Of a DNA stretch of 64,000 bases, positions 200 to 15,958 are shown one piece after another. The notes below the pieces were generated by a model. The model was not told the DNA's origin and searched no databases. It was given only the letters and a program-made list of their open reading frames with translations. Source of the stretch: Candidatus Scalindua sp. SCAELEC01 (GTDB lineage: Bacteria > Planctomycetota > Brocadiia > Brocadiales > Scalinduaceae); NCBI GenBank assembly GCA_004282745.1, contig SHMT01000007.1, forward strand, positions 1 to 64,000, given 5' to 3'. Positions within the stretch are counted from its first letter, which is position 1. Every line of letters starts with the position of its first letter. Position numbers and translations under genes: made by a program.

Positions 200-1255
200 T
201 CATTTGATAAACAGCTCTTGACAAAACCTTCCCGCTTGTTCAATATTTTTTGTAACATCATAATAATCAATTTCCATTGCCTTGATCTGGGAAATGTCCG
301 GAATAGAGGATGGTCTTTGCACATTCTCTCGTAACGGCATTTGTGCTGATGTACTAAAGGCTAATGCGCTCTCAACCTCTTCGGTTAACAGATAGTCTAC
401 CAATTGCATCCCATTTTGAGGATTTGGTCCATTTTTAATAAGTGCGACAGTATTGGGTATTATTAACGTTCCAAAACCATCTTGGTCTGGGTAAATTATT
501 TTAACAGCACTCCCTTTCGTTATTGCCACATTTGCGTCATCAGTATCCGTAAACCCTATCGGGACTGTTCCCTCAACCACAAGATCTCTCGTTACAGAAT
601 TTCCGTTTACAACGACAACTTCATTATCAACCAACCGTTTCAAGAAGCTTTCAGCCTTTTCCTTTCCAAGAGAGGAATACAGGGCTGCTATGTGTGTTGC
701 CGTAGTACCGAAAAGAGGATATGCCATAGTAACTCTCCCCTTCCATTTTTGACCTGTTAACTCAAAAATAGATTCTGGAACATCCTTTTCTTTCAGTAAT
801 TTTGTATTATAGATAAGAACTCTTGCCCGCGCCGCAAAACCTGTCCACAAATAATCTGTATCCTTAAAAGCTTGTGGAAACTGTTCCCAATGGACTGATT
901 TATAGGGAGCTAAGATTCCCGCTTTCGCCAGATAAATTGTCCTGCTCACTTCGGAATTCCAAAAAACATCTGCCTTGGGGCGTCTCTTCTCCGCTAGTAA
1001 TCGGTTAACCAACCCCACTGTCTTTGCGGCCTCAACATCATAAAGGGCTTTTACCCGTATGCCGCTCTTTTCCTGAAAAGCCATCAAGATCGGTTCGCTA
1101 AATGTCTGATCTACTGATGTGTAAACGACAACCTCTTCTGCTGAAGACAGTGACGCTCTCATAAAGAGAAATACCAGTATCATTGTCACTACATAACGCG
1201 TATTCAATAGCGTATTGTTCATGAGATGTATTTTATTGTTCATTTCCTCTGCCAC
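200..1255 (-). CDS. ABC transporter solute-binding protein, iron(III)/family 1 type
   Basis: Periplasmic binding protein of the FutA/AfuA-like family 1 class. A hydrophobic signal (VVTMILVFLFMRASLSSAEE) is followed by VVVYTSVDQTFSEPIL, the family's typical first strand, and then 'PKADVFWNSE' and 'GTVPIGFTDTDDA' segments. The GTG start at 1255 is preferred because AAGGTGG lies four to five bases upstream; in-frame ATGs at 1243 and 1222 are less well placed. The gene overlaps the end of the upstream nucleotidyltransferase gene by 23 bp, so it is translated as the last visible gene of the RiPP operon. No ATP-binding or permease gene is visible. The ligand is inferred to be ferric iron or another anion; a role with the peptide product is only suggested by position. 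Confidence 0.85.
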   Translation of the reverse strand: MAEEMNNKIHLMNNTLLNTRYVVTMILVFLFMRASLSSAEEVVVYTSVDQTFSEPILMAFQEKSGIRVKALYDVEAAKTVGLVNRLLAEKRRPKADVFWNSEVSRTIYLAKAGILAPYKSVHWEQFPQAFKDTDYLWTGFAARARVLIYNTKLLKEKDVPESIFELTGQKWKGRVTMAYPLFGTTATHIAALYSSLGKEKAESFLKRLVDNEVVVVNGNSVTRDLVVEGTVPIGFTDTDDANVAITKGSAVKIIYPDQDGFGTLIIPNTVALIKNGPNPQNGMQLVDYLLTEEVESALAFSTSAQMPLRENVQRPSSIPDISQIKAMEIDYYDVTKNIEQAGRFCQELFIK

Positions 1256-2531
1256 TCATCCACCTTTTTAGGATGGCGTCTTCTTTGATGCGGGGGACCT
1301 CAAAGACTATCCTCCCATATCGAAAAAGAAGCATAAACGGACGAATCATGTAGTAGAGAAAGCGCCTTTTAGAGGAGAGGGGAATCGAATATCTCTGAGA
1401 CATAGATTCTCGGTCAGGAAATAGGTGACGGAGTAAAGTTCTTGCCTTTTCTTGAAAACTGTGAGACACTTGTGTTTGAATGATTTTGGGTGGTACTACT
1501 GAAAGAGAATCTTCTCGAATAAGGATTTTCCTACACATTATGGACACCACTTCTCTCTCTCCCCCCTTCGACGTAAACCCACTCAATATCTTACCGATCG
1601 TTCCACCATTCTCCTCCATGATCTTCTTCACAATGCAGAGGGTCATAAAAACGGGATTGGCAATTTGGTATTTCTCAGCCCTATCCCTCAGCCTATGCCA
1701 AGATATCTGATCGCTGAAGTGTTTAATAGTTTGATAGATATCATGTATCTGTATCAGTGCTCCTCTACTCGTAAAGCCTGCACCAAAACCTTGATATCGA
1801 TTTTGATACCGATGTTTTAAAAAATGGAGACAAAGGTGGAAGATGCAATCCTCTGGACTGAGGATACGTACAGGACGGCCTGAAATCTTGACCGCCATCG
1901 CTCCTCTCCTCCACTCCGCAATCATCTCGTTATCAAAGTCTCGGATTCGAGACGGATGTATTTTGTTCGCTATGTGCCAATGTATTTCTACCGGAACACT
2001 CTTTTCCTGATGGATATAGTTCATGTGGTGATGGCGATTCCTTTGATACCAACCAGAAGTTTCTCTCTCATCGAGAAAATAACCTGCTCCGTAAAGTATG
2101 CGTTCTGCATCGGGAAGAGCCTGTTTCTTTACGAGGAGATCAATATCACTCATCGGCCTTAACCCGATATCACCATACACCGTTTGAGCCAATGCGGCAC
2201 CCTTGAGTATAATAACTTCTATCCCTCCATTGTCAAACGCCTCTAAAATTCTTTCTAATTCTGCATACAGGCACATATTCCTGGCTACCGTATCGTAGTA
2301 AGCGGCCTTTACCTTTCCCATAAACTCTACGGGAATTGAGTCGGTTTTCTGGAACGACTTTAAAGAATTGTAGAGTAATGGCCCTATACCGTGCCAGGAT
2401 GCAGACGCCAAAATCTCGTCCCAATTAATGGAACCCTTTAGCAGCCCCTTTACCTTTGCCCTTGTATCCTCTGAAATTTCTGTTCGCGTACAGCTAAGCA
2501 AGAGCTGGTTTTCATAAGATAGATGCAACAT
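1233..2531 (-). CDS. nucleotidyltransferase family protein (NTP_transf_5 type)
   Basis: The 432-residue protein matches the uncharacterised nucleotidyltransferase family often found beside PqqD, B2 and HPr-kinase-like genes. The catalytic region is at residues 106-136: ILKGAALAQTVYGD, then RPMSDIDLLV with the metal-binding DxD at 129-131. A helical C-terminal half follows. It starts 9 bp after the B2 gene and overlaps the solute-binding protein gene, which indicates cotranscription. By family it should transfer a nucleotidyl group to a small molecule, sugar or peptide; the substrate is unknown. In this setting it may modify the RiPP or a carrier, which is inference. Confidence 0.8.
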   Translation of the reverse strand: MLHLSYENQLLLSCTRTEISEDTRAKVKGLLKGSINWDEILASASWHGIGPLLYNSLKSFQKTDSIPVEFMGKVKAAYYDTVARNMCLYAELERILEAFDNGGIEVIILKGAALAQTVYGDIGLRPMSDIDLLVKKQALPDAERILYGAGYFLDERETSGWYQRNRHHHMNYIHQEKSVPVEIHWHIANKIHPSRIRDFDNEMIAEWRRGAMAVKISGRPVRILSPEDCIFHLCLHFLKHRYQNRYQGFGAGFTSRGALIQIHDIYQTIKHFSDQISWHRLRDRAEKYQIANPVFMTLCIVKKIMEENGGTIGKILSGFTSKGGEREVVSIMCRKILIREDSLSVVPPKIIQTQVSHSFQEKARTLLRHLFPDRESMSQRYSIPLSSKRRFLYYMIRPFMLLFRYGRIVFEVPRIKEDAILKRWMSGRGNEQ

Positions 2532-2540
2532 AGATAGCTT

Positions 2541-3041
2541 TTAAAGATTAGCAAACGAAATACTCTCTTCCTCGGGGAAGATATACGTTACCTTGTAGCT
2601 CTTTACTACCTCGCTATTTTTTTCAAGAAAGATTTTTCCCTTATAAAGGAGCCATGCATGTCCCTCAAGTCTCTTTTGTGGAGAACCGGCCGGTAGTAAC
2701 ATTGTGTTAAATCTTACCCCAAAACAGATAGTCACCTCCATTCCGGACTTCCGTAAAAGGTGGTAGAGTACTAAAGATCGTTTCAGGCAGGGATTTTTAC
2801 CTGCCAGATATTTACGGCTCAGGATGTAGTCCGTAAACCGAACAACTTTATCCTGAAATTCCTCACTATCCGAACTCTTATTGATCTTCAAGGTTCTCGG
2901 TGTAAAAACTCTCATTAATCCCGGGAGAGAATAAAATCTCAGGACCAGAGGCAATGTGGTTATGATAAAGAGTATTTGTATAAAGATCCAGATATCTTCG
3001 ACTGTTTTGAAGTTTTTTCTCATTTTTTTGTAAACGTTCAC
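2541..3041 (-). CDS. lasso peptide B2-type leader protease (transglutaminase-like)
   Basis: 166 residues with a membrane-spanning N-terminus (IQILFIITTLPLVLRFY) and a transglutaminase-fold cysteine protease domain. The catalytic Cys is in NPCLKRSLVLYHLL (Cys85) and the His in LEGHAWLLYKG (His128), the two best conserved B2 motifs. B2 proteins cleave the leader peptide of lasso and related precursors after recognition by a PqqD-like B1 protein; here that B1 partner is the next gene upstream, 63 bp away. The annotated start is GTG at 3041 with a poor ribosome binding site; ATG at 3023 is an alternative. Between this gene and the PqqD gene lies a fragment of repeat family A. Confidence 0.82.
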   Translation of the reverse strand: MNVYKKMRKNFKTVEDIWIFIQILFIITTLPLVLRFYSLPGLMRVFTPRTLKINKSSDSEEFQDKVVRFTDYILSRKYLAGKNPCLKRSLVLYHLLRKSGMEVTICFGVRFNTMLLPAGSPQKRLEGHAWLLYKGKIFLEKNSEVVKSYKVTYIFPEEESISFANL

Positions 3042-3066
3042 CGCAGAGTTTTCTCTATTTTTTTGA

Positions 3067-3116
3067 ATGAGTGCTTGTACGGAAACCCTGTGTTTGAACG
3101 AAAACTACCCATCTAC
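3067..3116. repeat. repeat family A fragment
   Basis: About 50 bp match the terminal arm of family A (GTGCTTG, ACGGAAACCCTGTGTTTG, then AACTACCCATCTAC). The fragment overlaps the 3' end of the PqqD gene. The last codons and the TAG stop of that gene fall inside repeat sequence. Confidence 0.7.
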
Positions 3117-3392
3117 AACCTTTACTAATTTTTCACGAACAAGCTCAGAAATAAGAGCGAGAACACTTTCCCTTGCCTTTTCAGGTGAAACATCAAACTC
3201 TTCCAGAAGCTTTGTCCCTATCTCATCAAGCGTTAAATCTGCACTCAACAGTCCCCAAATATGGACTCCTGTCTCATTGAGGGTAAAGTACGCCTTGGTC
3301 CCCAGATGAAGGAGAACGGCCTCTTTCCCCTCCTCTAATTCCGTTACCACAACATCTGTATCGGGTTTCACTTTCTGATGTAACTCTATCAT
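3105..3392 (-). CDS. PqqD-family RiPP leader-binding protein (RRE, B1-like)
   Basis: 95-residue PqqD-like protein. The region AVLLHLGTKAYFTLNETGVHIWGLL is the PqqD signature (beta strands followed by LNxTGxxIW), and the C-terminal half forms the expected helices (LDEIGTKLLEEFDVSPEKARESV). PqqD domains bind RiPP leader peptides and present them to processing enzymes; in lasso systems a free-standing copy is the B1 protein that partners the B2 protease, which follows here. The leader motif it would bind is present in the precursor at 7423-7596. The C-terminus KVVDG and stop codon are encoded in a fragment of repeat A, so the original end may have been altered. Confidence 0.85.
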   Translation of the reverse strand: MIELHQKVKPDTDVVVTELEEGKEAVLLHLGTKAYFTLNETGVHIWGLLSADLTLDEIGTKLLEEFDVSPEKARESVLALISELVREKLVKVVDG

Positions 3393-3418
3393 TAATAGTA
3401 CCTCTTTAAAATATGTTC

Positions 3419-3864
3419 AGCCACGAATGAACACGAACAATCACGAATCATAATATGATAATTCAAATAACGATCCTTTCGTATTCAAGCCGTTCTTTGC
3501 CAAAATTTAGGATAATTACCAACTTTAAGCCAGTAGCTTTTAAATAATTTAGTGATTGAGCTATATGAGCATTTGTAATTTTCTCTACTGATTTAAGCTC
3601 TAAAATAATTTTGTTCTCAACCAAAATATCTGTACAGTATTTTCCAACTATTTCTTTTTCGAAATATACCGTTATTGGTTCTTGTTGCTTTGATTCAATC
3701 CTCTCTCGTTGAAGTAATACCATCGAAGCATTCTCATAGACCTTTTCTAAGAATCCAAAACCAAGTTTATTATGTACCTGCATCGCTAATCCAACAATTT
3801 TGTATGACAAATCTTTATATAAAATTTTGTTATCATTCGTGTTCATTCGAGTAGATTCGTGGCT
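3419..3864. repeat. inverted repeats flanking the GxxExxY cassette
   Basis: 31-bp imperfect inverted repeats at 3419-3449 and 3834-3864 both begin AGCCACGAAT from the outside and contain GAACACGAA. They bracket the single GxxExxY gene, and the gene's start codon lies within the right-hand repeat. This looks like a single-gene cassette inserted between the radical SAM and PqqD genes. Confidence 0.7.
3463..3846 (-). CDS. GxxExxY protein (PDDEXK_3 nuclease-like family)
   Basis: 127 residues with the name-giving motif GFLEKVY (31-37), the upstream AMQVHNKLG helix, and a PDDEXK-like core with Asp73 and Glu83-x-Lys85. The family is widespread in environmental bacteria, often in multiple copies flanked by short repeats; its cellular role is not established. 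Here it is flanked by inverted repeats, lies in the same orientation as the RiPP genes and is not expected to act in peptide maturation. A second, broken member of the family lies at 42475-42663. Confidence 0.85.
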   Translation of the reverse strand: MNTNDNKILYKDLSYKIVGLAMQVHNKLGFGFLEKVYENASMVLLQRERIESKQQEPITVYFEKEIVGKYCTDILVENKIILELKSVEKITNAHIAQSLNYLKATGLKLVIILNFGKERLEYERIVI

Positions 3865-3871
3865 AAACTAT

Positions 3872-4870
3872 TTATACCTTCCAAACAAGACTCGACCAGG
3901 GACTTTCGTGGTCATCTTTCAGCCAATCGACTTTATCAAAATAATTTAAACAATAGAAGCAGGGAAAATAGTCAGAATCTCGGAATTCACCCTTACCGTA
4001 GCGTTCGCGCTTATCCTGGTGAAAGGTTTTATTCAAATGAATAAAACCTTTCTGTGCCTCTGCAAAACTCATCGTATCTAAGTTACCAATTATGTCACCC
4101 TCTATTGCACCGTTTCCGTAACCGGACAGATGACAGCATAAGGTGACATTACCCCTCCAGTCAATGTTCAACTCCTTTGACTGAAGCGGACTGCAGGGGA
4201 AGAGGTTGGTCGTATGATATCCAGGAGCCATGATTATGGGCATGGGAAAGGATTGTTGAAGTTCTCCGATTATACCCTCGATCACCACACACTCCTCAGG
4301 AGAAAGAGAAAGACCTTTTTCAACATTCCCGGGTGTCGGCATGAGATGGCAAAACCTCAACCCACGACTCCCCAGCTTCGTTGCAAGCTCAGCCATCTCC
4401 TTTAATTCTCCCTTATTGTATGACATAACGGTCGTATTAATGGTAAAGGGGATATCTTTTACCATGCAGATACTAAAAGCCTTCATGAGTCGACGATATG
4501 CCCCCCTCCCTCGCACCCTATCGTGCACCTCCTCCCTGGCACTATCCAGACTAAACGTAATACCTCTCAGTCTGTCACGATAGGGAAGTAACTGGCTATA
4601 CATCTCAACAAAATTCCATCCGTTTGTGACAAAGCCAAAGTTATATCCCGCTTCATACACATTCTTGAGAATCTCATTGAATCGGGGGTGAAGTGTCGGT
4701 TCTCCTCCCGTAAAAGAGAGGTGATCAAAACCGTGCTCCTTGCAGTTTTGGAGGATCTTATCCAGAATCTCCAACTTTAGGCTTTGACCATCACTACTAT
4801 GTCTACCTTCCATGCAGTGCTGACAACTTAAATTACAGTGATTTGTTAGTTCGATTACGATACTTGGCAT
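3872..4870 (-). CDS. radical SAM protein with C-terminal Cys-rich (SPASM-like) region
   Basis: 332 residues. The CxxxCxxC motif that binds the SAM-cleaving 4Fe-4S cluster is at Cys12, Cys16 and Cys19 (HCNLSCQHC), followed by GGEP at 55-58. The C-terminal third has Cys residues in FPCSP, CCHLSG and CFYC, consistent with an auxiliary cluster as in SPASM/twitch RiPP maturases. Such enzymes install crosslinks, epimerise residues or otherwise modify peptides, with leader binding by PqqD; the PqqD gene follows after an inserted cassette. It is the best candidate for the main modifying enzyme of this locus because no lasso cyclase is present. No paired peptide motif proves the chemistry. Confidence 0.85.
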   Translation of the reverse strand: MPSIVIELTNHCNLSCQHCMEGRHSSDGQSLKLEILDKILQNCKEHGFDHLSFTGGEPTLHPRFNEILKNVYEAGYNFGFVTNGWNFVEMYSQLLPYRDRLRGITFSLDSAREEVHDRVRGRGAYRRLMKAFSICMVKDIPFTINTTVMSYNKGELKEMAELATKLGSRGLRFCHLMPTPGNVEKGLSLSPEECVVIEGIIGELQQSFPMPIIMAPGYHTTNLFPCSPLQSKELNIDWRGNVTLCCHLSGYGNGAIEGDIIGNLDTMSFAEAQKGFIHLNKTFHQDKRERYGKGEFRDSDYFPCFYCLNYFDKVDWLKDDHESPWSSLVWKV

Positions 4871-4884
4871 TTAATGTAAATCCC

Positions 4885-5374
4885 AATTTCTAATATCTAA
4901 ATCCTAAATAAATTCAAAATCACAATATTTAAAGCCAAAACGCTTTTATCAAAATATTGCCTCCTATTACCATTATTTAGATTTTTCTAATATAGCTCCA
5001 AATATTTTCGTAAGCTCATTAGATTCCTGAATTAGGATTTTCTGTTCTTTTTCAAATTCTTTGATACAATTAATAAGTTTCAACCAATAACGACTTTCCT
5101 TCGCTTCCTTACGACATATTTTAATCCTCATAATGAAATCTTTTTTGCTTAGAGATTCGTTAGCTTCAATATAATTTGCTCCTACCGAACCCGCCGATCT
5201 AACCAATTGTTTACTGATTTCAATATTAGTTAAAGATTTCGGTGTATTGTTAACCAATGCAATAACATCTTTAGCAAATTTGAATGTTCTGTCCTCTAGG
5301 TCGTAATGTTTTGAACTTTGTATTTTATCATTTGACATTGTTTAGGATTTAGTGCTTAGATTTTAGAATTTATA
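4885..5374. repeat. inverted AT-rich repeats flanking the four-helix-bundle cassette
   Basis: AT-rich sequences at about 4885-4914 and 5341-5374 are inverted copies built on CTAAATCCTAAA and AATTTCTAA. They bracket the single four-helix-bundle gene between the GNAT and radical SAM genes, the same arrangement as the GxxExxY cassette. Confidence 0.6.
4973..5338 (-). CDS. four helix bundle protein (23S intervening-sequence family)
   Basis: 121 residues with the family pattern: DRTFKFAKDVIALV, ISKQLVRSAGSVGANYIEANESLSKKDF, then KICRKEAKESRYWLKLI. The family was first found encoded in 23S rRNA intervening sequences and forms small pentameric four-helix bundles of unknown function. The gene is flanked by inverted AT-rich repeats and appears to be a self-contained cassette inserted in the RiPP operon. 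A biosynthetic role is unlikely. Confidence 0.85.
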   Translation of the reverse strand: MSNDKIQSSKHYDLEDRTFKFAKDVIALVNNTPKSLTNIEISKQLVRSAGSVGANYIEANESLSKKDFIMRIKICRKEAKESRYWLKLINCIKEFEKEQKILIQESNELTKIFGAILEKSK

Positions 5375-5408
5375 ATAATAAATTGGTTCTATGAACACGC
5401 TTGGCATT

Positions 5409-5969
5409 TTATTTTCCCCTGTTTTGGATATTAATTTCTTTGGTCAAAGAGATTCTGAATGTATCAAAACCAAATTTCTTCCAGAACAGCTCTCCCTCTT
5501 TGTTGTGGGCAGTAAGGGACAATTCAATACGTCGAATCTTTCTCGATTGGAACCATTTCAATGCATCGTTAACTAACTGCCTCCCAATACCCCTCCTGCG
5601 AAAGGATGGTACAACAAAACACTCTTCGATAACGCCCCACTGCATTGGTTTGATTGGTAAGGTTGTTCTCTTTTTCACACCATAGCGGATCCTGGAAAAA
5701 ATGGATTGCCGCTGGGCATTTACCGTGTAACTATTGATCCTGATATCGATAAAGCCTCCTAACGCACCACAGTACTCACAAACCAAAATGGAGCCATTAC
5801 TTCGCCTTAACTTTTTTTCTACATAACAACTCCAATCAAAATGTGGTACCAATTCGTAGTATTGGGCCAGTTTCTGGTGATACTCTATCTCTTGTTGATA
5901 AAGGTCCGAGAGATGAGGAATATCTTTCTCTGTCGCCTTCCGAATCTCCATTCTCTTACTAGGGTTCAT
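5409..5969 (-). CDS. GNAT family N-acetyltransferase
   Basis: 186 residues with the GNAT acetyl-CoA-binding signature RRRGIG at 124-129, preceded by the strand VIEECFVVPSF and followed by a C-terminal strand-helix (IELSLTAHNKEGELFWKKFGF). The start ATG overlaps the stop of the HPr-kinase-like gene by 4 bp (ATGA), so the two are translationally coupled and probably work together. GNAT enzymes acylate amines; in a RiPP locus this could modify a Lys or a freed N-terminus of the product, which is inference from context. Confidence 0.85.
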   Translation of the reverse strand: MNPSKRMEIRKATEKDIPHLSDLYQQEIEYHQKLAQYYELVPHFDWSCYVEKKLRRSNGSILVCEYCGALGGFIDIRINSYTVNAQRQSIFSRIRYGVKKRTTLPIKPMQWGVIEECFVVPSFRRRGIGRQLVNDALKWFQSRKIRRIELSLTAHNKEGELFWKKFGFDTFRISLTKEINIQNRGK

Positions 5970-6958
5970 TCTTTAGGTCTTGGCACTATCCCTGATAATA
6001 CTTCCGTAATCTTCTCCGGTTCTTCATACAAATCTCGCCCTGCAAAGAGTTGATAACAATCCGTCTGGGATACTAGCAGCTTAAGTATCTCAATTTGCAT
6101 AGCCACTATTGCCTTATCCAGCATGATCCCACCACTATTTTCAATAAGCATGATCAAGCCCTTACTCTTCTCAATTTGGCTTATATGACTTTTACCCTGA
6201 GACACTATCTTTGGAAAGATAAGTACCCTGGGAAAGCAACTGTTCAAATGCCCATCAGGGTATAACAAATTAATATCCAAAAACCTCTTATGGCCATTCA
6301 GAGAGTGTGGTACCATAGGATTATCGAGGTCTGGATAGAGAACTGATAAATGTGGATCAAATGAAAATCCCTTTTGAAAGGCTAGGGCCTCTATGCCATC
6401 TGAACGGTGTCTAATGAGGTTAACGTCATCTGATAGATACCCCCATCCCTGTCTAATTAAGCTAAGTGCCGCAGTAGATTTACCGCTGCCACTGCCTCCC
6501 AGAAATAGAATACCAAAATCGTCTTTCACTAAACCATTTGCATGAAGTGCATATAGTCCGTGATTACGAAAAAGCCACAAAAGGGAAAGCATAAGAAACT
6601 CCTGTTGGTATTTAGGGGGGCTCTCCCAAAAATGGGGATCGATAGAGCCATTTCCTCTGCTACAGGCAAGGTTTAGTTTGAAGATAGAATTCCCCCTTAC
6701 TAAATAGCAGAAATCTCCGTCCTGTAAAACACGCAGGGAAGGAGAGTCACAAAGCACCTGCGCTCTCTCAGGGACTTTAAAAAGAGAATTTTCCCTTTCA
6801 AACCTCAGAGTTATATCAGGAGAGTTAGAAATAGAACCATTTCTTGTCATAAAGAAACAATCCTCAATAGCACCAATAACCCTTTCCCCAAGTCGTCTAT
6901 CTTTGCACTCGACCTGCAAGTTTGTATGAGAAATAGAAAAAGACCCTAAAACACTCAT
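5966..6958 (-). CDS. HPr kinase/phosphorylase-like P-loop protein of RiPP type
   Basis: 330 residues. The C-terminal half contains the HprK-like ATP site: LHANGLV (139-144), Walker A GGSGSGKST (154-162) and YLSDDVNLI (174-182). The N-terminal half is divergent. HprK-like proteins in lasso peptide loci phosphorylate a Ser near the C-terminus of the precursor; here the precursor ends in F-S-P, giving a possible target Ser. The gene starts 24 bp after a strong hairpin terminator and has no clear ribosome binding site, so expression should be low relative to the precursor. It overlaps the GNAT gene by 4 bp. Confidence 0.8.
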   Translation of the reverse strand: MSVLGSFSISHTNLQVECKDRRLGERVIGAIEDCFFMTRNGSISNSPDITLRFERENSLFKVPERAQVLCDSPSLRVLQDGDFCYLVRGNSIFKLNLACSRGNGSIDPHFWESPPKYQQEFLMLSLLWLFRNHGLYALHANGLVKDDFGILFLGGSGSGKSTAALSLIRQGWGYLSDDVNLIRHRSDGIEALAFQKGFSFDPHLSVLYPDLDNPMVPHSLNGHKRFLDINLLYPDGHLNSCFPRVLIFPKIVSQGKSHISQIEKSKGLIMLIENSGGIMLDKAIVAMQIEILKLLVSQTDCYQLFAGRDLYEEPEKITEVLSGIVPRPKE

Positions 6959-6981
6959 TCTAATAGATGAACATAGTAGAT

Positions 6982-7012
6982 AAAAAAAAGGGGCGAGGTT
7001 AAACCTCGCCCC
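6982..7012 (-). terminator. intrinsic terminator between precursor and enzyme genes
   Basis: Perfect 9-bp GC-rich stem (GGGGCGAGG / CCTCGCCCC, 5-nt loop) at 6990-7012, followed on the minus strand by eight T residues. It would end most precursor transcripts and let a fraction read into the HprK-like gene. Confidence 0.85.
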
Positions 7013-7019
7013 TTATATA

Positions 7020-7422
7020 TTAATATATCACTAGATAATATTTTAGGCTTCTCTCAGCTTTGGACCCAACTTGGTCGAGCCAGAAACAAACAAATTTTCT
7101 CATGTGAACTGTCTCGACCGGGTTGCCAAATAAACATCTACCGCTTTCGAACCTGTCCCAGACCGCAGGGCGAATCGCACCAGCGCAGGCTTTCCCTTAA
7201 GGTATAAAAAAATAGCTAAACAGTTTTTCTTCCTACGTAAAAGGTGTAGTAGGAGTCTCAACGGTAATAGTTTCTCTGCCCGGTGAATCCGTTTGCCAGC
7301 CCCCGTCCGTCCACCTAAATGACGTGGTCGGGCAGGAACCGCACGAGCGGGCGATACACATTCTAGCGGGGACGGGCAGTCAAAAAAGAAAAAATCGCCG
7401 ACTGAGAGACTAAGTTGTAAGA
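7020..7422 (-). other. GC-rich region with RNA-structure potential downstream of the precursor
   Basis: About 400 bp between the precursor stop and the terminator, richer in GC than its surroundings in the middle part. Complementary segments include 7302-7308 with 7370-7376 (CCCGTCC/GGACGGG), 7276-7282 with 7329-7335 (CTGCCCG/CGGGCAG), 7339-7342 with 7347-7350, and GGTCGAG near 7073 with CTCGACC near 7112. The first two pairs interleave, so they form either a pseudoknot or alternative structures. No known RNA family was recognised. Confidence 0.4.
7233..7361 (-). CDS. possible 42-residue peptide gene
   Basis: An ATG at 7359-7361 opens MCIARSCGSCPTTSFRWTDG and continues to a peptide ending in VETPTTPFT. 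It lacks a ribosome binding site and is in the GC-rich structured region. It could be a second short product of the precursor transcript or a chance frame. Its position and Cys/Thr-rich composition make it worth noting but not firm. Confidence 0.2.
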   Translation of the reverse strand: MCIARSCGSCPTTSFRWTDGGWQTDSPGRETITVETPTTPFT

Positions 7423-7596
7423 CTATGGACTGAAAGGACCAAAGAACCCGGCCGTAATCTTTGTAGCGTCCCCATGTTTCGTGAGTTTCGGCTCAATAAA
7501 CGTTAATTTGGGATTCGTAAAGGCCTTTTTGCCCTGTGAAGCATCCGAGCTCTTCTCTTGAATCTCTTTTCGTCCAACTGACTGTTTTTCTAACAT
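7423..7596 (-). CDS. RiPP precursor peptide with lasso-type leader
   Basis: 57 residues starting MLEKQSVGRK. The leader contains FTNPKLTFIEPKLTKHGDAT: a repeated PKLT and the pattern F-x-x-P-x-L-x(3)-G-x(4)-I-T, which is the aromatic-xxPxLxxxG...T leader signature recognised by PqqD-type B1 proteins. After the conserved Thr the chain ends AGFFGPFSP. This tail has no Asp or Glu, so a lasso macrolactam cannot form in the usual way; the two Phe and the Ser are candidate targets for the radical SAM and HprK-like enzymes. AAGGAGG lies 7-8 bases upstream of ATG and a consensus promoter lies about 110 bp upstream. It heads the operon of biosynthetic genes. Confidence 0.8.
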   Translation of the reverse strand: MLEKQSVGRKEIQEKSSDASQGKKAFTNPKLTFIEPKLTKHGDATKITAGFFGPFSP

Positions 7597-7874: not shown

Positions 7875-9566
7875 TTAAAAGTCTGCCTCTCCTAATACAT
7901 TGACCGAGAACTGAAATATGTCACGTGTTAACAGACCAATTTTAAATTGAAATGTCCCGGTATCTCCAGGCAGAAATGGAGTCGTTGCACTACCTTGAGG
8001 AGTCATCGTTGATCCAACGCCCCCTGGACCACCATCAGCATTGAGCAATACGTTCCCCTCTGAAAGCTCTATGACTTCGAAGAAGATATTATGGATAGTT
8101 CTAAAACTAGAGTTACCGAATCTAGACCTGATCAAGAATGTTCCTGCTGGGCCACCTGGAACTGGAGTAGGATCAAACTTAGTAACTAACTCGTCCTTGC
8201 GAAGGTTAACTAAATGGTTAATAACCGGAAAGAATTCAATAGCACCGATGTCACAAGTATCACGTCGAGGCTTGTCAACCTGGTCAGTTGCTGGGCAAAC
8301 ATCGTCATTAGCTGCATCGATGGCAAAACTATTTTCCATAAGTGGAAAATGCGTTCTCCCAGGCTGTCCCGGATTTTTTAAAGGTCCTAAGCCGGAAGTA
8401 CCAATAATGTCACCTGGTTGAAATTCTATGTCGCATTCATCAAATTTTAAAAAAGAAATAATGTTATTGCCCAGCGACTCCACTCCATTCCCGGAACAAT
8501 CTGGACCCCTATCGGCCACATTATCAGCAATAATAGTGTTTTGAAGAAATATAGTATCTTCGCCATAATGAAAAAAATTAGAGATGCCCCCCCCATTTGA
8601 TTGATCTGATTTTGTCCTCTCTCTCTCCGCTATATTTTTAGCTATAGTGGAATTAATTATTTTTATCCTGCCGCTAAAGTTACCGATACCACCACCAGAA
8701 GCACCTCTATCAAAAGTACTTTCTGCCACGTTTCTAACAATGGAAGAATTGATTATATCCAAGGTGGCTATTTGGTTTCCTTTGTCACTGCTTCGGTTTG
8801 AAATGCCGCCTCCAAATCCCGCAGAACGAAAGAAACCATCTTCATTAGGATCTGATAACTCTGCTATGTTATTATCGATAGAGGAGCTGCTTATTATTAC
8901 GGTACCGTCTTCGTTCAAGATACCACCACCATCATTTGACACATTATGAGCAATGGAGGAGTTTTCTATTGTTACCGTTCCGCCACTATTTGCAATTCCA
9001 CCGCCACAAGTAGCACCATTATCAGTTATGATGGAGTGGCTTATACCCACTCTACCGTTTATGTTAAGGATGCCTCCACCACAACAACTAAAATACTCAT
9101 TATTGCCACAACCAACTGAACCCCCCCTAATAGTAAGCCCTTCAATTAAAAGGTCTCCTGGAAAATCAACTTCAATAATACGAAAAAAGGGCTCATTCCG
9201 ATTACCTTTTTGAATAATGGTTGTAAAAGCACCAGCACCTGTAATGGTGATGCTGCTAGTGATAATCGGTAAGCCATTAGCTCCATTAGTTCCGTTGTTG
9301 TTGATTTGCATTATGTTATAAGTACCTGCTTCTAAATTAATAATATCGCCTTCATCATTGGCATTTGCTGCATCAATTGCCTTAATCAGTGCATCAACAT
9401 TACCAGCAGGAACCGTGAACACTACGCCATAGATAGTGTGCGGTAAAGCCATAAAAAAGGCGATAGAGAAGATTGCCACACAGACACTTACCACGAAACT
9501 AGGCAGCGTTATCCCCATTTTGCCCTTAATTTTTGATCCCTTGGTTCTGCTTTTTATTTTACTCAT
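7875..9566 (-). CDS. secreted parallel beta-helix protein with shared C-terminal module
   Basis: About 563 residues. The frame extends to a GTG at 9590, but AGGAGG lies 7 bases before the ATG at 9566, which is taken as the start. A signal/membrane segment (LPSFVVSVCVAIFSIAFFMALPHTIYG) leads to NVDALIKAIDAAN, then repeated 'IENSSIAHN', 'ISSSSIDNN', 'IINSTIAKN' rungs with GGGI-N turns typical of right-handed beta-helices. The helix ends with a CDIGAIEF segment as in choice-of-anchor Q proteins. The final 110 residues (from about LVNLRKDEL) form a module also found in three other secreted proteins here. It is likely a surface or extracellular protein; its ligand is unknown. Confidence 0.8.
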   Translation of the reverse strand: MSKIKSRTKGSKIKGKMGITLPSFVVSVCVAIFSIAFFMALPHTIYGVVFTVPAGNVDALIKAIDAANANDEGDIINLEAGTYNIMQINNNGTNGANGLPIITSSITITGAGAFTTIIQKGNRNEPFFRIIEVDFPGDLLIEGLTIRGGSVGCGNNEYFSCCGGGILNINGRVGISHSIITDNGATCGGGIANSGGTVTIENSSIAHNVSNDGGGILNEDGTVIISSSSIDNNIAELSDPNEDGFFRSAGFGGGISNRSSDKGNQIATLDIINSSIVRNVAESTFDRGASGGGIGNFSGRIKIINSTIAKNIAERERTKSDQSNGGGISNFFHYGEDTIFLQNTIIADNVADRGPDCSGNGVESLGNNIISFLKFDECDIEFQPGDIIGTSGLGPLKNPGQPGRTHFPLMENSFAIDAANDDVCPATDQVDKPRRDTCDIGAIEFFPVINHLVNLRKDELVTKFDPTPVPGGPAGTFLIRSRFGNSSFRTIHNIFFEVIELSEGNVLLNADGGPGGVGSTMTPQGSATTPFLPGDTGTFQFKIGLLTRDIFQFSVNVLGEADF

Positions 9567-9590
9567 GTTCTGTCCTCCTATTGGCCACAC

Positions 9591-9985: not shown

Positions 9986-10424
9986 TTACTCTTCCTCCAG
10001 AGACTCCGAAGGATCAAACACAAATTTAAATGGTTCTGGTCGCAGAGTTTCCTTACCCTCTCTTTCTTGGATTTCTGAATCTTTAGCAGTAACTCTTAAT
10101 GGTGCAGTTTCTTCCCCCTTTGGTAAAATGATTATCTTGGTAATATGTTTTATATTACCGTGATTATTTTTTTCCTCCTTTTCCGAATCTATTTGATACC
10201 CATAATTTGAGCTCAGCTTCTCCAAGGCTTCTTTTATTGATAGCTTTTCAAATTCCACACTGATCTTCTCTTCTTCAATGATATTACCTACAACTTCGAT
10301 TTCCATCTTCCTTCCTATCTCTTCCATAATCTAGGTTAATGATGCACCCTTTGCACTGAGCGAGATATGGTCATCTTTTACTGTAAGTTCAAAACCTGCC
10401 TTTTCCTCTCTTTCGATTAAGCAT
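9986..10424 (-). pseudogene. decayed STN-like small protein gene (copy 3)
   Basis: A 113-residue frame (MEEIGRKMEIEVVGN..., then FEKLSIKEALEKLSSNYGY) is closely similar to the C-terminal two thirds of the intact protein at 15446-15958. Upstream the homologous sequence continues through ISLSAKGASLT to an in-frame TAG just before the MEEIG codons. Before that, the MLNR start is joined directly to the EEKAGFEL region, so the signal-peptide codons are deleted and the frame is shifted. This copy could only make a cytoplasmic fragment. It precedes a beta-helix gene just as its paralogues precede other secreted-protein genes. Confidence 0.75.
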
Positions 10425-10769: not shown

Positions 10770-12305
10770 CTAATATATACCCCCTCTTAGATAAACAAAG
10801 AATCTTAAAAACTGAATTTTTTCAAGGCCTATTATAAACTTTACTGTAATCGATTCATTATCTGAAAATTCTCCATCACTACCTACATAAGGTGTCAAGG
10901 TGGCTCCAACACTACCACCAACAGTATTGAGCACAACCCCATGAGAGAACTTTATAACTTCAAAGAATGGATGTAATATTGTTTTTCCACTCGTGTTTCT
11001 AAAAGTTGCTGTAATGTTAAGTGTCCCTGCAGTAGCATAAGGGGGAACTGGTGTTGTGCTAAAGAAATAATCCAATGCCTCCAAATCAACCATGTCTTTA
11101 TCAACAATTGGGTAGTATTCAATCGCACCGATATCGCAGATAACAGTACTATTCTCTTTGCCTTGCAAAGGACGTGGCATGTGGAGTTGATCGTTTATAG
11201 GGCAAAAAGCATTATTGCCTGCATCAATAGCTGGACTATTTTTCTGTAATGGGAAATGTCCTCTTCCTGTCGTTAAAACAACATTTAGAAATTTTTCCAA
11301 TTGAGGATCTGTATTTTGAAGGTCACCATCTCCCGTAAAACCACAGGTGCCGTCACTGTCCAGGTTGTAGCCTTTGGATGTGATGAAGTTGTTTCCGCAG
11401 TCTGTTCCTTTAAGCTGTTTGGCCACAATAGTATTTCGTGTAATCACTTTACCGCCACGGATATCGATGCCACCTACAGGATTACCTGGGCCAGAACAGC
11501 CACTGCCAAAGTCAGCTTTATTGCTACTAATAGTGCAATTTGTTAATTCCACTGAACCTCCTATGGCTACGATACCCCCACCGAAGCCTGCTGATCGGCC
11601 GCCGCCTATACATGGTACCGGAACACCAACAGCGTGGTTATGGCTCACAGTACAGTTGATAAGTTTCATGGTGCCTGAGTTATATACGCCACCGCCCCAG
11701 TCAGCTACATTGCCGCTAATGGTACTGTTAATCAGTTCCACCGTGCCTTTCTCATTTGAGATACCTCCGCCATTGCCAACTGTAGGGGCCTTGTTACCGA
11801 TAACGGTGCAGTTTATAAGTTTTAGTCTGCCGGCATTGTTTAAGATACCACCACCAAAACCGCGCAAGGTAATAGAATCACCAAAACGTGTTTTACCATT
11901 ACGTACAGTTAGATCTTTAAGAATCAAATTTCCCCCAGATGCCACATGGAAGATGCGGAAGGAAGAAGCGGCCGAACTGCTACGGTTGATGGTCGCCCCG
12001 TTACCATTAATTGTGAGCTCGCTGGTAATGGAAGGTAAGCCGTTATGGCCATCATTTAAGTCGACCGCAACGTTCAAAGCATAAGTACCAAAAGCGCCCA
12101 ATATAATTGTGTCTAATCCCGGATTTGTAGTTTCATCGTTTACGGCATTAATAGCATTAATCAATTCTGTAACATTGCTAACAGGGAATTCTTTGGCATT
12201 AGCGGTGCGTGGCACAACTATTGTAAAGGCGACAGAGGAAACCGTCAGCACACTTACAATCAAGTAAGACAGCCAAATTGTCTTTTTTATATTCCTTACT
12301 TTCAC
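10770..12305 (-). CDS. secreted parallel beta-helix protein with shared C-terminal module
   Basis: 511 residues. The GTG start at 12305 is supported by GGAGAG a few bases upstream. The signal peptide (IWLSYLIVSVLTVSSVAFTIVV, then TANA) is followed by VTELINAINAVND, and repeated rungs such as 'LINCTVIGNKA', 'LINSTISGNVA' and 'LTNCTISSNKA' with GGG-turns. CDIGAIEYYP closes the helix as in choice-of-anchor Q proteins. Residues from about 400 form the shared C-terminal module (TPVPPYATAGTLNITATF to FLRFFVYLRGGIY). It is paralogous to the protein encoded at 7875-9566 and probably acts outside the cell. Confidence 0.82.
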   Translation of the reverse strand: MKVRNIKKTIWLSYLIVSVLTVSSVAFTIVVPRTANAKEFPVSNVTELINAINAVNDETTNPGLDTIILGAFGTYALNVAVDLNDGHNGLPSITSELTINGNGATINRSSSAASSFRIFHVASGGNLILKDLTVRNGKTRFGDSITLRGFGGGILNNAGRLKLINCTVIGNKAPTVGNGGGISNEKGTVELINSTISGNVADWGGGVYNSGTMKLINCTVSHNHAVGVPVPCIGGGRSAGFGGGIVAIGGSVELTNCTISSNKADFGSGCSGPGNPVGGIDIRGGKVITRNTIVAKQLKGTDCGNNFITSKGYNLDSDGTCGFTGDGDLQNTDPQLEKFLNVVLTTGRGHFPLQKNSPAIDAGNNAFCPINDQLHMPRPLQGKENSTVICDIGAIEYYPIVDKDMVDLEALDYFFSTTPVPPYATAGTLNITATFRNTSGKTILHPFFEVIKFSHGVVLNTVGGSVGATLTPYVGSDGEFSDNESITVKFIIGLEKIQFLRFFVYLRGGIY

Positions 12306-12351: not shown

Positions 12352-12737
12352 TTATTGAATCAAAAGATTAATATTTATGGGTTTTACTCCTCCTCCCATA
12401 TCTTCCGCAGGATCAAACTCAAATTTAAAGGGTTCTGGGTGTTTAGATTCCTTGGTGGCGATTCTAATTGAAGCCATTTCTTTTCCCTTTGGTAAAATGC
12501 TTATCTTCATGATCTCTGATTTATCACCATAGTCTCCTTTTTCACCCTTTTCCGCATCAGTTAGATATCCGTAATTAGTGCTTAGCTTCTCAAGTGCCTC
12601 GGCCAAGGATAGCTTTTTAAACTCTATACTGGTTCTTTCTTCCTCAGTGATATCACCAACTACGTCGATAGCCATCTTAGTTCCTATCTCTTTCAATGAA
12701 GCATCCTTTGCACTTTGGGAAAAAAGGTTCTCCTTTT
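12352..12737 (-). pseudogene. truncated STN-like small protein gene (copy 2)
   Basis: The frame encodes SQSAKDASLKEIGTKMAIDVVG and then FKKLSLAEALEKLSTNYGY, matching the protein encoded at 15446-15958 but lacking six residues (SEVMEE in the intact copy) and the whole signal peptide. Upstream coding sequence runs into the last codons of the delta-60 gene with no ATG or good ribosome binding site; only a TTG at 12696 could start it. It is a 5'-truncated copy in the same relative position as its paralogues. Confidence 0.7.
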
Positions 12738-15029
12738 CTATTGTTCCATCCCAAAGATATCTACGAAGAACCTAAAGCTTGAGCGTTGCAACAGGCCAAT
12801 CTCATAATCCACCCTTACACATTCCCCTGGCATTAACAGAGCATCTGCATATCCACCCGTTTTCGGAAACAGGATCACTGAACCCTTCCCAGGAGGGCCA
12901 CTGTCCCTATTGAGAAATGCAACAAAGCTCCCAGAAGTCTGCTGTGTCACACTCCTTAGTTCCGTGAGGATGGCCCCTCCCATAGGTTCTGTGTTGCAGA
13001 AGTCTACACTAAAGGTAAATGTTCCTCCCGGACCGTCAGGAACTTGAGTGGGATCGAAAGTGAAAGTGGATCGATCTGGCGTTCCACTGAACCGGTTATT
13101 CACAAGTTCAAGTTTATCAAAGGAGCAGATAGCGTAAAGTCCTTCACCTTGATATTTGACCAAAATAGCTGCGTTGGGATTAGATGGATTCAGTTTGTTA
13201 ATGGAATTACCATTTTTCTGAAGGAGATTCTGCACACCATTGAAAAGAGGGTGACCAGAGTTGATAGGAACTATTTGGTCGATATCGTTATGAACTGGCT
13301 CAAATGTGAGACCGCATTTGGACAGTAAAGGATTCCACAGATCAGCTTCCTTTTGTGGATGGCCTGAAGCTGAACCGCCAGCGAGATAGATATTCTTTCC
13401 TGCTCTTAAGTAGTCAATAAGAACCTGAGGATGGGGCTTTGGTGGTGCTGGATAGTCAGGATGAACAGTTGATACTCCAGTCAGAAAAATTCCATCGTAC
13501 TGCAAAAGATCTTCCAGGGTGAAATCAGTCGTTTCCTCTATTTTTTTCCATTTATGACCACCAATAACTTCCATAGTGTTTTTTAACTGATCTCCTACTA
13601 AACCACTATTTTGAGGAAACTTAGCTGAGTAGACAAGAAAGCTGCCTTGTGTGCCACCAGTAAAATAGCTCGCCGCATTCAGAGCAAATTGACGTGCATC
13701 GTCAGGTGTGTGAGTGAAACCTCCTTCGTCGCTCAACGTCCACTCATCGTTATTTACAATGATAACGCCCTTGGACGTTACGGTATCGGATGAAATATAG
13801 CGGGCTAATGCGAACCTCCCTCCTACAAACCCCGCAGCTACCAGCTTACCGTCGGCTTGGACAACCAGGGCACGGGCTTCTTGAGGGCCACCACCGAAGT
13901 CTGTCGTGACTTTGCCGCCAGTGCCAAAGCTCGGATCAAGGCTGCCATCCAGGAAGTAGCGGGCTAAGGCGAAGTTAGCATCTGTTCGTCCCGCGGCCAC
14001 CAGCTTGCCATCGGCTTGGACAACCAGGGCATTGGATTGGTCAAGAGAAGTACCGAAGTCGGTCGTGACTCTGCCGCCAGTGCCAAAGCTCGGATCGAGG
14101 CTGCCATCCGGGGTGTAGCGGGCTAAGGCGAATTTAGCACCTGTTCGTCCCGCCGCCACCAGCTTGCTGTCGGCTTGGACGACCAGGGCTGAGGCTTCGT
14201 CCAGGCTACCGAAGTCGGTCGTGACTTTGCCGCCGGTGCCAAAGCTCGGATCGAGGCTGCCATCCGGGGTGTAGCGGGCTAAGGCGAATTTAGCACCTGT
14301 TAGTCCCGCAGCTACCAGCTTGCCATCGGCTTGGACGGCCAGGGCTGTGGCAATGTCCACGTCATTGAAGTCGGTCGTGACTTTGCCGCCGGTGCCAAAG
14401 CTCGGATCAAGACTGCCATCTGGGGTGTAGCGGGCTAAATTGAACTTTGCTCCATGTCCTCCCCCCGCCGCCACCAGCTTGCCATCGGCTTGGACGACCA
14501 GGGCATAGGCCTGGGTTAAGAGGCCCCCGAAGTCGGTCGTGACTTTACCACCGGTGCCAAAGCTCAGATCAAGGCTGCCATCCGGGGTGTAGCGGACTAA
14601 TGCGAATTCCCTTTCGCCTCCCCCCGCCGCCACCAGCTTGCCATCGGCTTGGACGACCAAGGCATAGGCAATGTTAAAGTCATTGAAGCCGGTCGGTTCG
14701 AAGTCGGTCGTGACTCTGCCTCCAGTGCCAAAGCTCGGATCGAGACTGCCATCCGGGGTGTAGCGGGTTAATAAGAATCCTCTTCCCCTCCCTTTCCCCG
14801 CAGCTACCAGCTTGCCATCGGCTTGGACAACCAAGGCCTGAGCAATGTCAGAACCAAGGAAGGCGGTCGTAACTGTCCCACCGGCGCCGAAGCTCGGGTC
14901 TAAATCTCCGGGAGCAGCTACAACCGGACGCACTGTGCAAAGGCTCAGCATATACAAGACTAACAACGTTAGCATGCTGTATATAGCTGCTCTTGATAGG
15001 CATTGGAATTTTGATGTGTGTTTATTCAC
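12738..15029 (-). CDS. secreted delta-60 repeat protein with GATase-like domain and shared C-terminal module
   Basis: 763 residues. It starts at GTG 15029 with AGAGG upstream and has a signal peptide ending near VRPVVAAP. Residues 40-410 contain seven delta-60 repeats, each with LDPSFGTGGKVTTDFG and ALVVQADGKLVAAG, probably a seven-bladed propeller. A central domain (VIIVNNDEW... DGIFLTGVS... VLIDYLRAGKNIYLAGGSASG) resembles class I amidotransferase-like/ThuA folds without an obvious catalytic triad. The final 110 residues are the shared C-terminal module, ending SSFRFFVDIFGMEQ. It is likely an extracellular binding or scaffold protein. Confidence 0.8.
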   Translation of the reverse strand: MNKHTSKFQCLSRAAIYSMLTLLVLYMLSLCTVRPVVAAPGDLDPSFGAGGTVTTAFLGSDIAQALVVQADGKLVAAGKGRGRGFLLTRYTPDGSLDPSFGTGGRVTTDFEPTGFNDFNIAYALVVQADGKLVAAGGGEREFALVRYTPDGSLDLSFGTGGKVTTDFGGLLTQAYALVVQADGKLVAAGGGHGAKFNLARYTPDGSLDPSFGTGGKVTTDFNDVDIATALAVQADGKLVAAGLTGAKFALARYTPDGSLDPSFGTGGKVTTDFGSLDEASALVVQADSKLVAAGRTGAKFALARYTPDGSLDPSFGTGGRVTTDFGTSLDQSNALVVQADGKLVAAGRTDANFALARYFLDGSLDPSFGTGGKVTTDFGGGPQEARALVVQADGKLVAAGFVGGRFALARYISSDTVTSKGVIIVNNDEWTLSDEGGFTHTPDDARQFALNAASYFTGGTQGSFLVYSAKFPQNSGLVGDQLKNTMEVIGGHKWKKIEETTDFTLEDLLQYDGIFLTGVSTVHPDYPAPPKPHPQVLIDYLRAGKNIYLAGGSASGHPQKEADLWNPLLSKCGLTFEPVHNDIDQIVPINSGHPLFNGVQNLLQKNGNSINKLNPSNPNAAILVKYQGEGLYAICSFDKLELVNNRFSGTPDRSTFTFDPTQVPDGPGGTFTFSVDFCNTEPMGGAILTELRSVTQQTSGSFVAFLNRDSGPPGKGSVILFPKTGGYADALLMPGECVRVDYEIGLLQRSSFRFFVDIFGMEQ
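13797..14915. repeat. tandem delta-60 coding repeats
   Basis: Seven units of about 150-170 bp encode the delta-60 repeats. Units 4-6 are nearly identical at DNA level and rich in GC compared with adjacent DNA, which suggests recent expansion or homogenisation. Confidence 0.75.
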
Positions 15030-15445: not shown

Positions 15446-15958
15446 CTATTTCTGTATAAACTCCGCAGGGTTAAACTCAAATTTAAAGGGTTCCGGTCTT
15501 TTGGCATCCTTAGCCTTCCTCTCCTGGGTTTCAGATTCTCTAGCAGCAACTCTTAATGGTGCGGTTTCTTTCCCCTTTGGAAGGACAACGATCTTAGTTA
15601 TCTTTTCTTCTCCCTTTTCTGAATCCATTACATATCCATAGCTTGCACTGAGTTTCTCCAACGCCTCTTTTAATGATAGCTTTTCAAATTCCACACTAAT
15701 CTTCTCTCCCTCAGGGATATTACCGATTATTTTGATTTCCATCTTCCTTCCTATCTCTTCCATAACCTCACTTAATGATGCATCCTTTGCACTGAGTGAG
15801 ATAAGTTCATCATTTACCGTAAGCTCAAAACCCGTCTTTTCCTCAGATTCCCTTTCGGCCTTTTCTCCTAGAAGCAATGATGGAATCAATAACAAAGATA
15901 TAAGCAAGAGGATAGGAACCACAGAAAACTTCTCTATACCTTCATTTCGATTAAGCAT
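15446..15958 (-). CDS. STN-like (secretin/TonB short N-terminal type) exported protein, intact copy
   Basis: 170 residues with a strong ribosome binding site (AAAGGAGGTG) and a signal peptide (VVPILLLISLLLIPSLLLGE). The mature part has the pattern of STN domains: ISLSAKDASLSEVMEEIG, then IIGNIPEGEKISVEFEKLSLKEALEKLSASYGY and a strand KITKIVVLPKG. STN domains occur at the periplasmic face of secretins and TonB-dependent receptors; stand-alone versions are rarely characterised. It lies first in an array with three secreted proteins, each preceded by a copy of this gene, so a role in their export or assembly is possible but unproven. Confidence 0.65.
   Translation of the reverse strand: MLNRNEGIEKFSVVPILLLISLLLIPSLLLGEKAERESEEKTGFELTVNDELISLSAKDASLSEVMEEIGRKMEIKIIGNIPEGEKISVEFEKLSLKEALEKLSASYGYVMDSEKGEEKITKIVVLPKGKETAPLRVAARESETQERKAKDAKRPEPFKFEFNPAEFIQK

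Follow-up and report, generated by a model that had tools for sequence, protein, structure and literature searches.

Lasso-type processing genes without a cyclase in anammox bacteria: a conserved radical SAM RiPP cluster with a probable link to secreted surface proteins

We analyzed positions 1 to 64,000 of contig SHMT01000007.1 from Candidatus Scalindua sp. SCAELEC01 (assembly GCA_004282745.1), referred to here as the window. The window is the start of contig G000:C14, with the contig end at G000:C14:1; G numbers denote genomes (G000 is the window's own) and L numbers fetched loci. Its minus strand carries a gene cluster for a ribosomally synthesized and post-translationally modified peptide (RiPP) in the order precursor, HprK-like kinase, GNAT acyltransferase, radical S-adenosylmethionine (SAM) enzyme, PqqD (B1), B2 leader peptidase and NTP_transf_5 protein (Table 1). 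The cluster is real and conserved, and it is not a lasso peptide cluster. It probably represents a cyclase-less pathway made from lasso-processing parts, in which a short peptide, modified by the radical SAM enzyme and probably phosphorylated, partners surface proteins with a common C-terminal domain (CTD). New here is the observation that the precursor gene normally lies directly after the gene of a large secreted protein with an undescribed immunoglobulin (Ig)-like CTD. This link is the most interesting feature of the system and was missed by a preliminary description made from the sequence alone. Our reading is founded on gene content, conservation, the absence of a cyclase, the register of the leader, the co-occurrence with the CTD and a motif common to precursor and CTD proteins.

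A lasso-type leader precedes a short variable core

An alignment of 11 precursor sequences revealed a nearly invariant leader and a core that varies except for an FxxF motif. F26, PKLTF, EPKLTK, GDAT, I47-T48 and the core residues F52 and F55 are invariant. Leaders of lasso peptides follow the register F/Y(-17), P(-14), L(-12), T(-2) (PMC10368454). With T48 set as -2, the residues L38, P36 and F33 take the positions -12, -14 and -17, which is an exact fit to F(-17)xxP(-14)xL(-12)...T(-2), and the window precursor gave sub-threshold matches to the lasso-leader models NF033528 (22.6 bits) and NF033521 (15.8 bits). The core is predicted to start at residue 50 and to comprise 6-11 residues, for example GFFGPFSP (window), SFFNVFTPA, AMPFFGTFVP and NNGFFGTFVS. 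Every aligned core contains Ser/Thr, mostly at residues 53-56 and at no single fixed position. The combination of a conserved leader, a variable core and a fixed FxxF argues for a RiPP and not for a decayed gene. No aligned core contains Cys, so that thioether chemistry of the sactipeptide or ranthipeptide type was ruled out.

An orphan second precursor with the core GFFGAFSP is located at G000:C10 (L127:1610-1786) directly after a CTD gene; the fetched stretch contains no maturation genes. The Brocadia metagenome-assembled genome (MAG) G046 contains three or four precursors, and its kinase genes are duplicated (L030:1988-2219, L030:10305-10481; L169:10222-10449), which suggests core diversification.

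The enzyme set is conserved in several phyla

The genes named in the preliminary description were all recovered on the minus strand by family matches, although the leader matches were sub-threshold and the kinase match was below the cut-off of TIGR04352. In the kinase alignment the residues H139, K160 (P-loop GSGSGKS), D177 and D178 are invariant, and these correspond to the His-Lys-Asp-Asp catalytic motif of PadeK-type lasso peptide kinases (PMC9266682). The radical SAM enzyme had been described as having extra C-terminal cysteines, and the alignments bear this out: in addition to CX3CX2C, the pattern C226-x13-GxxxxC245-C246 and C304xxC307 is invariant, a reduced SPASM/twitch-like arrangement. 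Its AlphaFold model (predicted local distance difference test score, pLDDT, 83.5) is predicted to be closest to the solved structures of BlsE, SkfB and PqqE, a set of peptide maturases and other radical SAM enzymes. A radical SAM enzyme with a conserved CX3CX2C is co-located with a RiPP recognition element (RRE) and a precursor, the arrangement by which radical SAM RiPP clusters are recognized. The RRE protein PqqD is 65-72% identical among Brocadiales loci and scored below the cut-offs of the lasso-specific PqqD models. B2 has invariant Cys85 and His128 with Glu140 at the third position, and each of the ten cluster genomes described below contains one B2 match. Homologs of the NTP_transf_5 protein lie within the cluster in G001, G026, G028, G037, G039, L044 and L052.

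The radical SAM protein was searched for in 59 Brocadiales genomes and, in a wider scan, in 84,980 species genomes. Ten Brocadiales genomes have the gene, namely the window's own and nine with orthologs 56-73% identical to the window protein (E < 1e-118), from which ordinary radical SAM paralogs are clearly set apart (E > 1e-25); G001 is the sole same-genus relative in the search. A precursor was found around all nine orthologs. In most of the ten genomes precursor, kinase, radical SAM enzyme, PqqD, B2 and NTP_transf_5 protein are encoded at one site; the set is split in G019, where kinase and B2 lie at C71, and in G046, a fragmented MAG with the B2 and NTP_transf_5 genes on a separate contig. 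Precursor genes occur in 12 of the 59 genomes, the two additional ones being G051, where the gene is at a contig end, and G045, where it accompanies the remnant of a cluster that has fragments of kinase and B2. GNAT, which had been counted as part of the cluster, is present in the window and is only accessory, because it was found in 3/10 Brocadiales clusters (G000, G001 and G019). A rule connecting GNAT with TAGFFG cores is true for the Brocadiales clusters and was rejected, because Nitrospira L052 has such a core without GNAT nearby.

In the wider scan the identity of the radical SAM protein was 63% in a deltaproteobacterium, 52-55% in Nitrospiraceae and Nitrospira, 42% in Thiohalocapsa and 34-40% in distant loci of KSB1 and Acidobacteria. 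Gene order is identical in Deltaproteobacteria (L044), mostly kept in Nitrospiraceae (L050/L053) and Nitrospira (L052) and rearranged in Thiohalocapsa (L059). Since precursor leader and enzymes keep their gene order across genera and phyla, the cluster did not come together by chance. Conservation of the radical SAM gene with the cluster, a check proposed earlier, was thus observed in 10/10 Brocadiales clusters and in other phyla, with 50-75% identity in the close set. Because the deltaproteobacterial copy is 63% identical, the cluster appears to have spread horizontally.

Two Acidobacteria loci contain, in front of the kinase gene, a short open reading frame (ORF) of the form FVEPxxSVPVDVLExT-xFFQA (L056:7794-7967, L057:7680-7886). 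Its leader differs and marks a divergent branch of the family; the ending T-xFFQA indicates that the junction of T followed by FF is kept even in remote clusters. In KSB1 a candidate precursor with the glycine-rich core LDEGGIGSTGVTGGIGGF (L054:4657-4842) adjoins radical SAM, B2, kinase and PqqD genes. The radical SAM genes of two anammox (anaerobic ammonium-oxidizing) families (L029:9996-11004, L036:9601-10618) have an in-frame TAG at an identical C-terminal Trp codon (KVD*LK and KKD*FK versus KVDWLK), and NPW homology is recognizable past the stop; this is either a tolerated truncation or readthrough. A distant radical SAM paralog with the motif SFTGGEPT is common to many Lokiarchaeota (L060-L070, others up to L117).

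Secreted CTD proteins accompany the precursor and in Brocadiaceae share its core motif

CTD genes adjoin the cluster in almost all species, with Deltaproteobacteria, Nitrospira, Nitrospiraceae and Thiohalocapsa among them. At almost every locus, that of the orphan precursor included, a CTD gene lies upstream of the precursor. The domain comprises the last ~100 residues and gave no match in Pfam or NCBIfam. It is predicted to form an Ig-like beta-sandwich, with AlphaFold block pLDDT values from about 88 upward across its length; a fold search against PDB gave nothing below E 0.001 and only weak chitin-binding, macroglobulin and pilin-like Ig folds. The N-terminal parts are diverse and include beta-propellers, CBM9 and delta-60 repeats. 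Among the 59 Brocadiales genomes the CTD was found in 8/10 with the radical SAM cluster versus 1/49 without it (Fisher p=1.8e-7); this value overstates independence, as genomes of one order are related, and to that extent it argues less strongly for the link, though the association recurs across phyla. The lone CTD genome without the cluster is G051, one of the two with a precursor only or a remnant cluster. A CTD profile search added G001 and raised the count to 9/10 cluster genomes. Two genomes have 16-21 CTD copies scattered far from the cluster.

The CTD proteins of Brocadiaceae continue for 30-50 residues past the domain and carry KGFFGRFRP, RSFFGRFRP, RGFFGRFYP or a similar sequence at or near the C-terminus. 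This FFGxFxP is the same motif as in the precursor cores; an example is the tail MATRISGNGFFGRFRP against the precursor DATRITGNGFFSAFVP. Twelve of these proteins bear a degenerate copy of the precursor (FFGRFRP), for example ATRISGNGFFGRFRP compared with the precursor ATRITGNGFFSAFVP. When the 2073 distinct protein C-termini of the fetched loci were ranked by their match to a precursor profile, CTD tails took the first nine places and 12 of the first 15. Shuffled CTD tails gave a modest separation, and the background of real C-termini is more convincing. A search of the 59 genomes for a DNA pattern encoding FFGxFxP followed by a stop revealed the form FFGRF(R/Y)P only beside CTD domains. The tails have Arg at the place of Ser/Thr in the precursor cores and are therefore unlikely substrates of the kinase. 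These similarities are best explained if the tails are degenerate copies of the precursor that would act in cis, or if the precursor is a processed tail that would act in trans.

Several observations weigh against the proposed pathway or against a partnership of its peptide with CTD proteins. The FFGRF tail is missing from the CTD proteins of Scalindua, Deltaproteobacteria and Nitrospiraceae, and outside the FFGxF end the tails resemble the leader only weakly. When CTD and tail were modelled together as a monomer, AlphaFold left the tail disordered (pLDDT about 50), so that no docking is predicted in the monomer and docking of the tail onto its own CTD was rejected. The profile search found no CTD protein in G037 and in Nitrospiraceae L050/G060, which have the cluster, and the CTD is therefore not obligatory. 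The position of Ser/Thr in the core (53-56) is not fixed, unlike the site of paeninodin-type kinases, and the cluster encodes no exporter.

These clusters without a CTD gene also fit an alternative that we regard as unlikely though worth attention, namely that the product is secreted as a free signal or antimicrobial and that the CTD proteins are only frequent neighbors, co-transferred for instance on one island. Bioactive RiPPs typically combine a constant leader with a core that varies, and the apparent horizontal spread points in the same direction. However, the adjacency of CTD genes holds across several phyla, the CTD copies far from the cluster are nevertheless confined to cluster-bearing genomes, and FFGxFxP is common to core and tails.

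No lasso cyclase is encoded

The preliminary description saw no cyclase in the window and proposed a genome-wide search for a distant one. Since the window begins at a contig end, a cyclase just outside was judged via the complete genomes of relatives. The complete single-contig genomes G037 and G039 have an intact cluster and a single B2 and encode no full-length Asn_synthase protein genome-wide; the matches are partial only (E 1e-5 to 5e-4). A distant cyclase is therefore excluded in both, barring an entirely unrelated enzyme that forms macrolactams. The window's genome encodes five full-length Asn_synthase proteins, all starting with MCGI and none adjoining the cluster. They pass the NCBIfam cut-off for canonical asparagine synthases, are far under the lasso-cyclase cut-off and by this measure are canonical glutamine-dependent, AsnB-like enzymes.

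It is thus highly improbable that the cluster belongs to a genuine lasso pathway with a cyclase elsewhere in the genome or to a lasso cluster decayed by cyclase loss, even though B1, B2, kinase, NTP_transf_5 and leader register are as in the phosphorylated lasso peptides paeninodin, pseudomycoidin and bsf. The core tail had been noted to lack the Asp/Glu needed for a macrolactam, and neither the aligned nor the further listed cores have Asp/Glu at core positions 7-9; with 6-11 residues they are also too short for threading. Decay is contradicted by the strong conservation of leader and enzymes in several phyla with the radical SAM gene linked throughout. The lasso reading fails because the defining cyclase and the acceptor residue are both missing. 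A redox cofactor similar to PQQ or mycofactocin would agree with the set of PqqD, radical SAM enzyme and peptidase and with PqqE among the nearest structures, but there is hardly any room for it, because its core should be invariant whereas length and most positions vary, the core has no Tyr/Glu pair, and no linked dehydrogenase family was seen.

Proposed pathway

In the cyclase-less RiPP pathway that we infer, with every enzymatic step and the function of ligand and tail deduced from sequence and the chemistry taken from the enzyme families, PqqD would bind the leader through F(-17)xxP(-14)xL(-12). The radical SAM enzyme would then modify the core GFFGPFSP, with the invariant phenylalanines of FxxF as the obvious target and a C-C cross-link or a C-alpha/C-beta change on Phe as the most likely product. 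The HprK-like kinase may phosphorylate Ser/Thr in the core tail, and the NTP_transf_5 protein may decorate this phosphate; in pseudomycoidin a gene of this type, PsmN, is required for the addition of hexoses to phospho-Ser (PMC9266682). Cleavage by B2 after the pair T(-2)-A/G(-1) would release a peptide of 6-11 residues, which would be N-acetylated in the subset with GNAT. A phosphorylated or acylated product, as proposed earlier, is plausible given the invariant His-Lys-Asp-Asp of the kinase and the GNAT gene in a subset only. The hairpin between precursor and kinase genes (Table 1) fits a higher expression of the precursor than of the enzymes; this is only suggestive, as the consensus scan found fewer such sites overall than in shuffles and is weak evidence.

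The released peptide would act jointly with the large secreted Ig-like CTD proteins encoded just upstream. Because many Brocadiaceae CTD proteins carry a copy of the precursor end in cis, peptide and protein tails probably bind one partner surface or compete for it. More tentatively, and with the balance rather against it, one may imagine a two-part surface system in which the modified RiPP is the trans version of the cis FFGxFxP tail and plugs, caps or is attached to CTD proteins in a ligand-like manner or by strand complementation, with the STN/FecR_C-like protein as a further partner. Such a cis/trans system would, if true, be new to biology.

The B1/B2 genes of lasso peptides are common lasso markers in genome mining. 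The present cluster suggests that this pair, together with a tailoring set of the PadeK/PsmN type, can also be used for another kind of RiPP, one made with a radical SAM enzyme and no cyclase. For anammox bacteria it provides a compact pathway that is open to testing. The core motif in the tails of secreted proteins and the co-occurrence with the CTD suggest that a RiPP may be dedicated to a family of surface proteins as their partner and not be a free metabolite.

Features of the window

Table 1. Features of the RiPP cluster and of the adjoining CTD region in the window.
Feature	Position	Strand	Remarks
NTP_transf_5 nucleotidyltransferase-like protein	1233..2531	-	PF14907, E 2e-60; DxD motif, D129 and D131 invariant
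Lasso-type B2 leader peptidase	2541..3041	-	NF033537, 50.4 bits (cut-off 33)
PqqD/B1, stand-alone RRE	3105..3392	-	PF05402, 66 bits
Radical SAM enzyme	3872..4870	-	PF04055, 87 bits; CX3CX2C, SPASM-like Cys, no N-terminal RRE extension
GNAT acyltransferase, accessory	5409..5969	-	PF00583
HprK-like kinase	5966..6958	-	C-terminal kinase, P-loop GSGSGKS; TIGR04352 E 2e-12, under the cut-off of that model
Intrinsic-terminator-like hairpin between precursor and kinase genes	6988..7014	-	12-bp stem, T8; consensus scan
RiPP precursor, 57 aa	7423..7596	-	leader ...FTNPKLTFIEPKLTKHGDATKITA; predicted core GFFGPFSP; ribosome-binding site AAGGAGGAAAAAGT before ATG
Secreted choice-of-anchor Q protein	7875..9590	-	CTD = residues 472-567; directly upstream of precursor
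STN/FecR_C-like periplasmic partner, broken copy	9986..10417	-	in-frame TAG; C-terminal FKFxFDPSE motif
Second CTD protein	10770..12305	-	
Second STN/FecR_C-like gene	12352..12735	-	apparently 5'-truncated
Third CTD protein	12738..15029	-	delta-60 repeats / DUF5122 beta-propeller and CTD
Intact STN/FecR_C-like gene	15449..15958	-	
Fourth CTD protein in window	24257..25774	-	

The span 200-7596 had been described as one cluster, which is true for the RiPP genes and not for three other ORFs. No ortholog cluster has a match to the solute-binding protein (200-1255) next to it, and this protein is therefore placed outside the system. The GxxExxY ORF (3463-3846) and the four-helix-bundle ORF (4973-5338) each lie between imperfect inverted repeats of 39-48 nt (3415-3868 and 4871-5378); as they are missing from all relatives and flanked by repeats, they are insertions, and both units look like small mobile cassettes inside the RiPP cluster.

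In some genomes the CTD genes occur together with the gene of a small secreted STN/FecR_C-like protein, which has a C-terminal FKFxFDP motif. Strong matches were limited to G000, G001, G019, G047 and G051, so that the protein was rejected as an obligatory part and is considered accessory. Intact copies are present elsewhere in the window's genome as well.

Comparison with known systems

In the open-licence PubMed Central (PMC) literature we found no paper with a matching gene combination and none naming the SynChlorMet (Scm) cassette of NCBIfam. This cassette has a similar combination of PqqD (ScmD), HprK-like kinase (ScmC) and radical SAM/SPASM enzymes (ScmE/F); the models for ScmC, D, E and F gave only sub-threshold scores on the window proteins, far under the curated cut-offs. 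Unlike SynChlorMet, the present cluster has one radical SAM enzyme instead of two and in addition a B2 peptidase and a lasso-type leader. The HPr-rel-A system (TIGR04352/TIGR04353) also combines an HprK-related kinase with a chaperone of the PqqD family, but the scores here are under the cut-offs (46.9 of 200 bits and 21.5 of 35 bits).

The peptide maturases SkfB, PqqE and SuiB share with the enzyme of the window a TIM-barrel radical SAM core and a Cys-rich C-terminal domain. In contrast to these, the core peptide has no Cys, Lys or Trp as substrate residue, no RRE is fused to the enzyme, and the SPASM cysteines are reduced to C226, C245, C246, C304 and C307.

The closest resemblance in processing genes is to the clusters of phosphorylated or glycosylated lasso peptides (paeninodin with PadeK, pseudomycoidin with PsmK/PsmN, and bsf of Bradymonas), which likewise have a stand-alone B1 (PqqD), B2, an HprK-like kinase and a nucleotidyltransferase and share the leader residues P(-14), L(-12) and T(-2) (PMC9266682, PMC10368454). 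Unlike these clusters, the one described here has no cyclase, no ABC transporter, no acceptor Asp/Glu and no fixed Ser; it has instead a radical SAM enzyme, a core of only 6-11 residues and linked CTD surface proteins.

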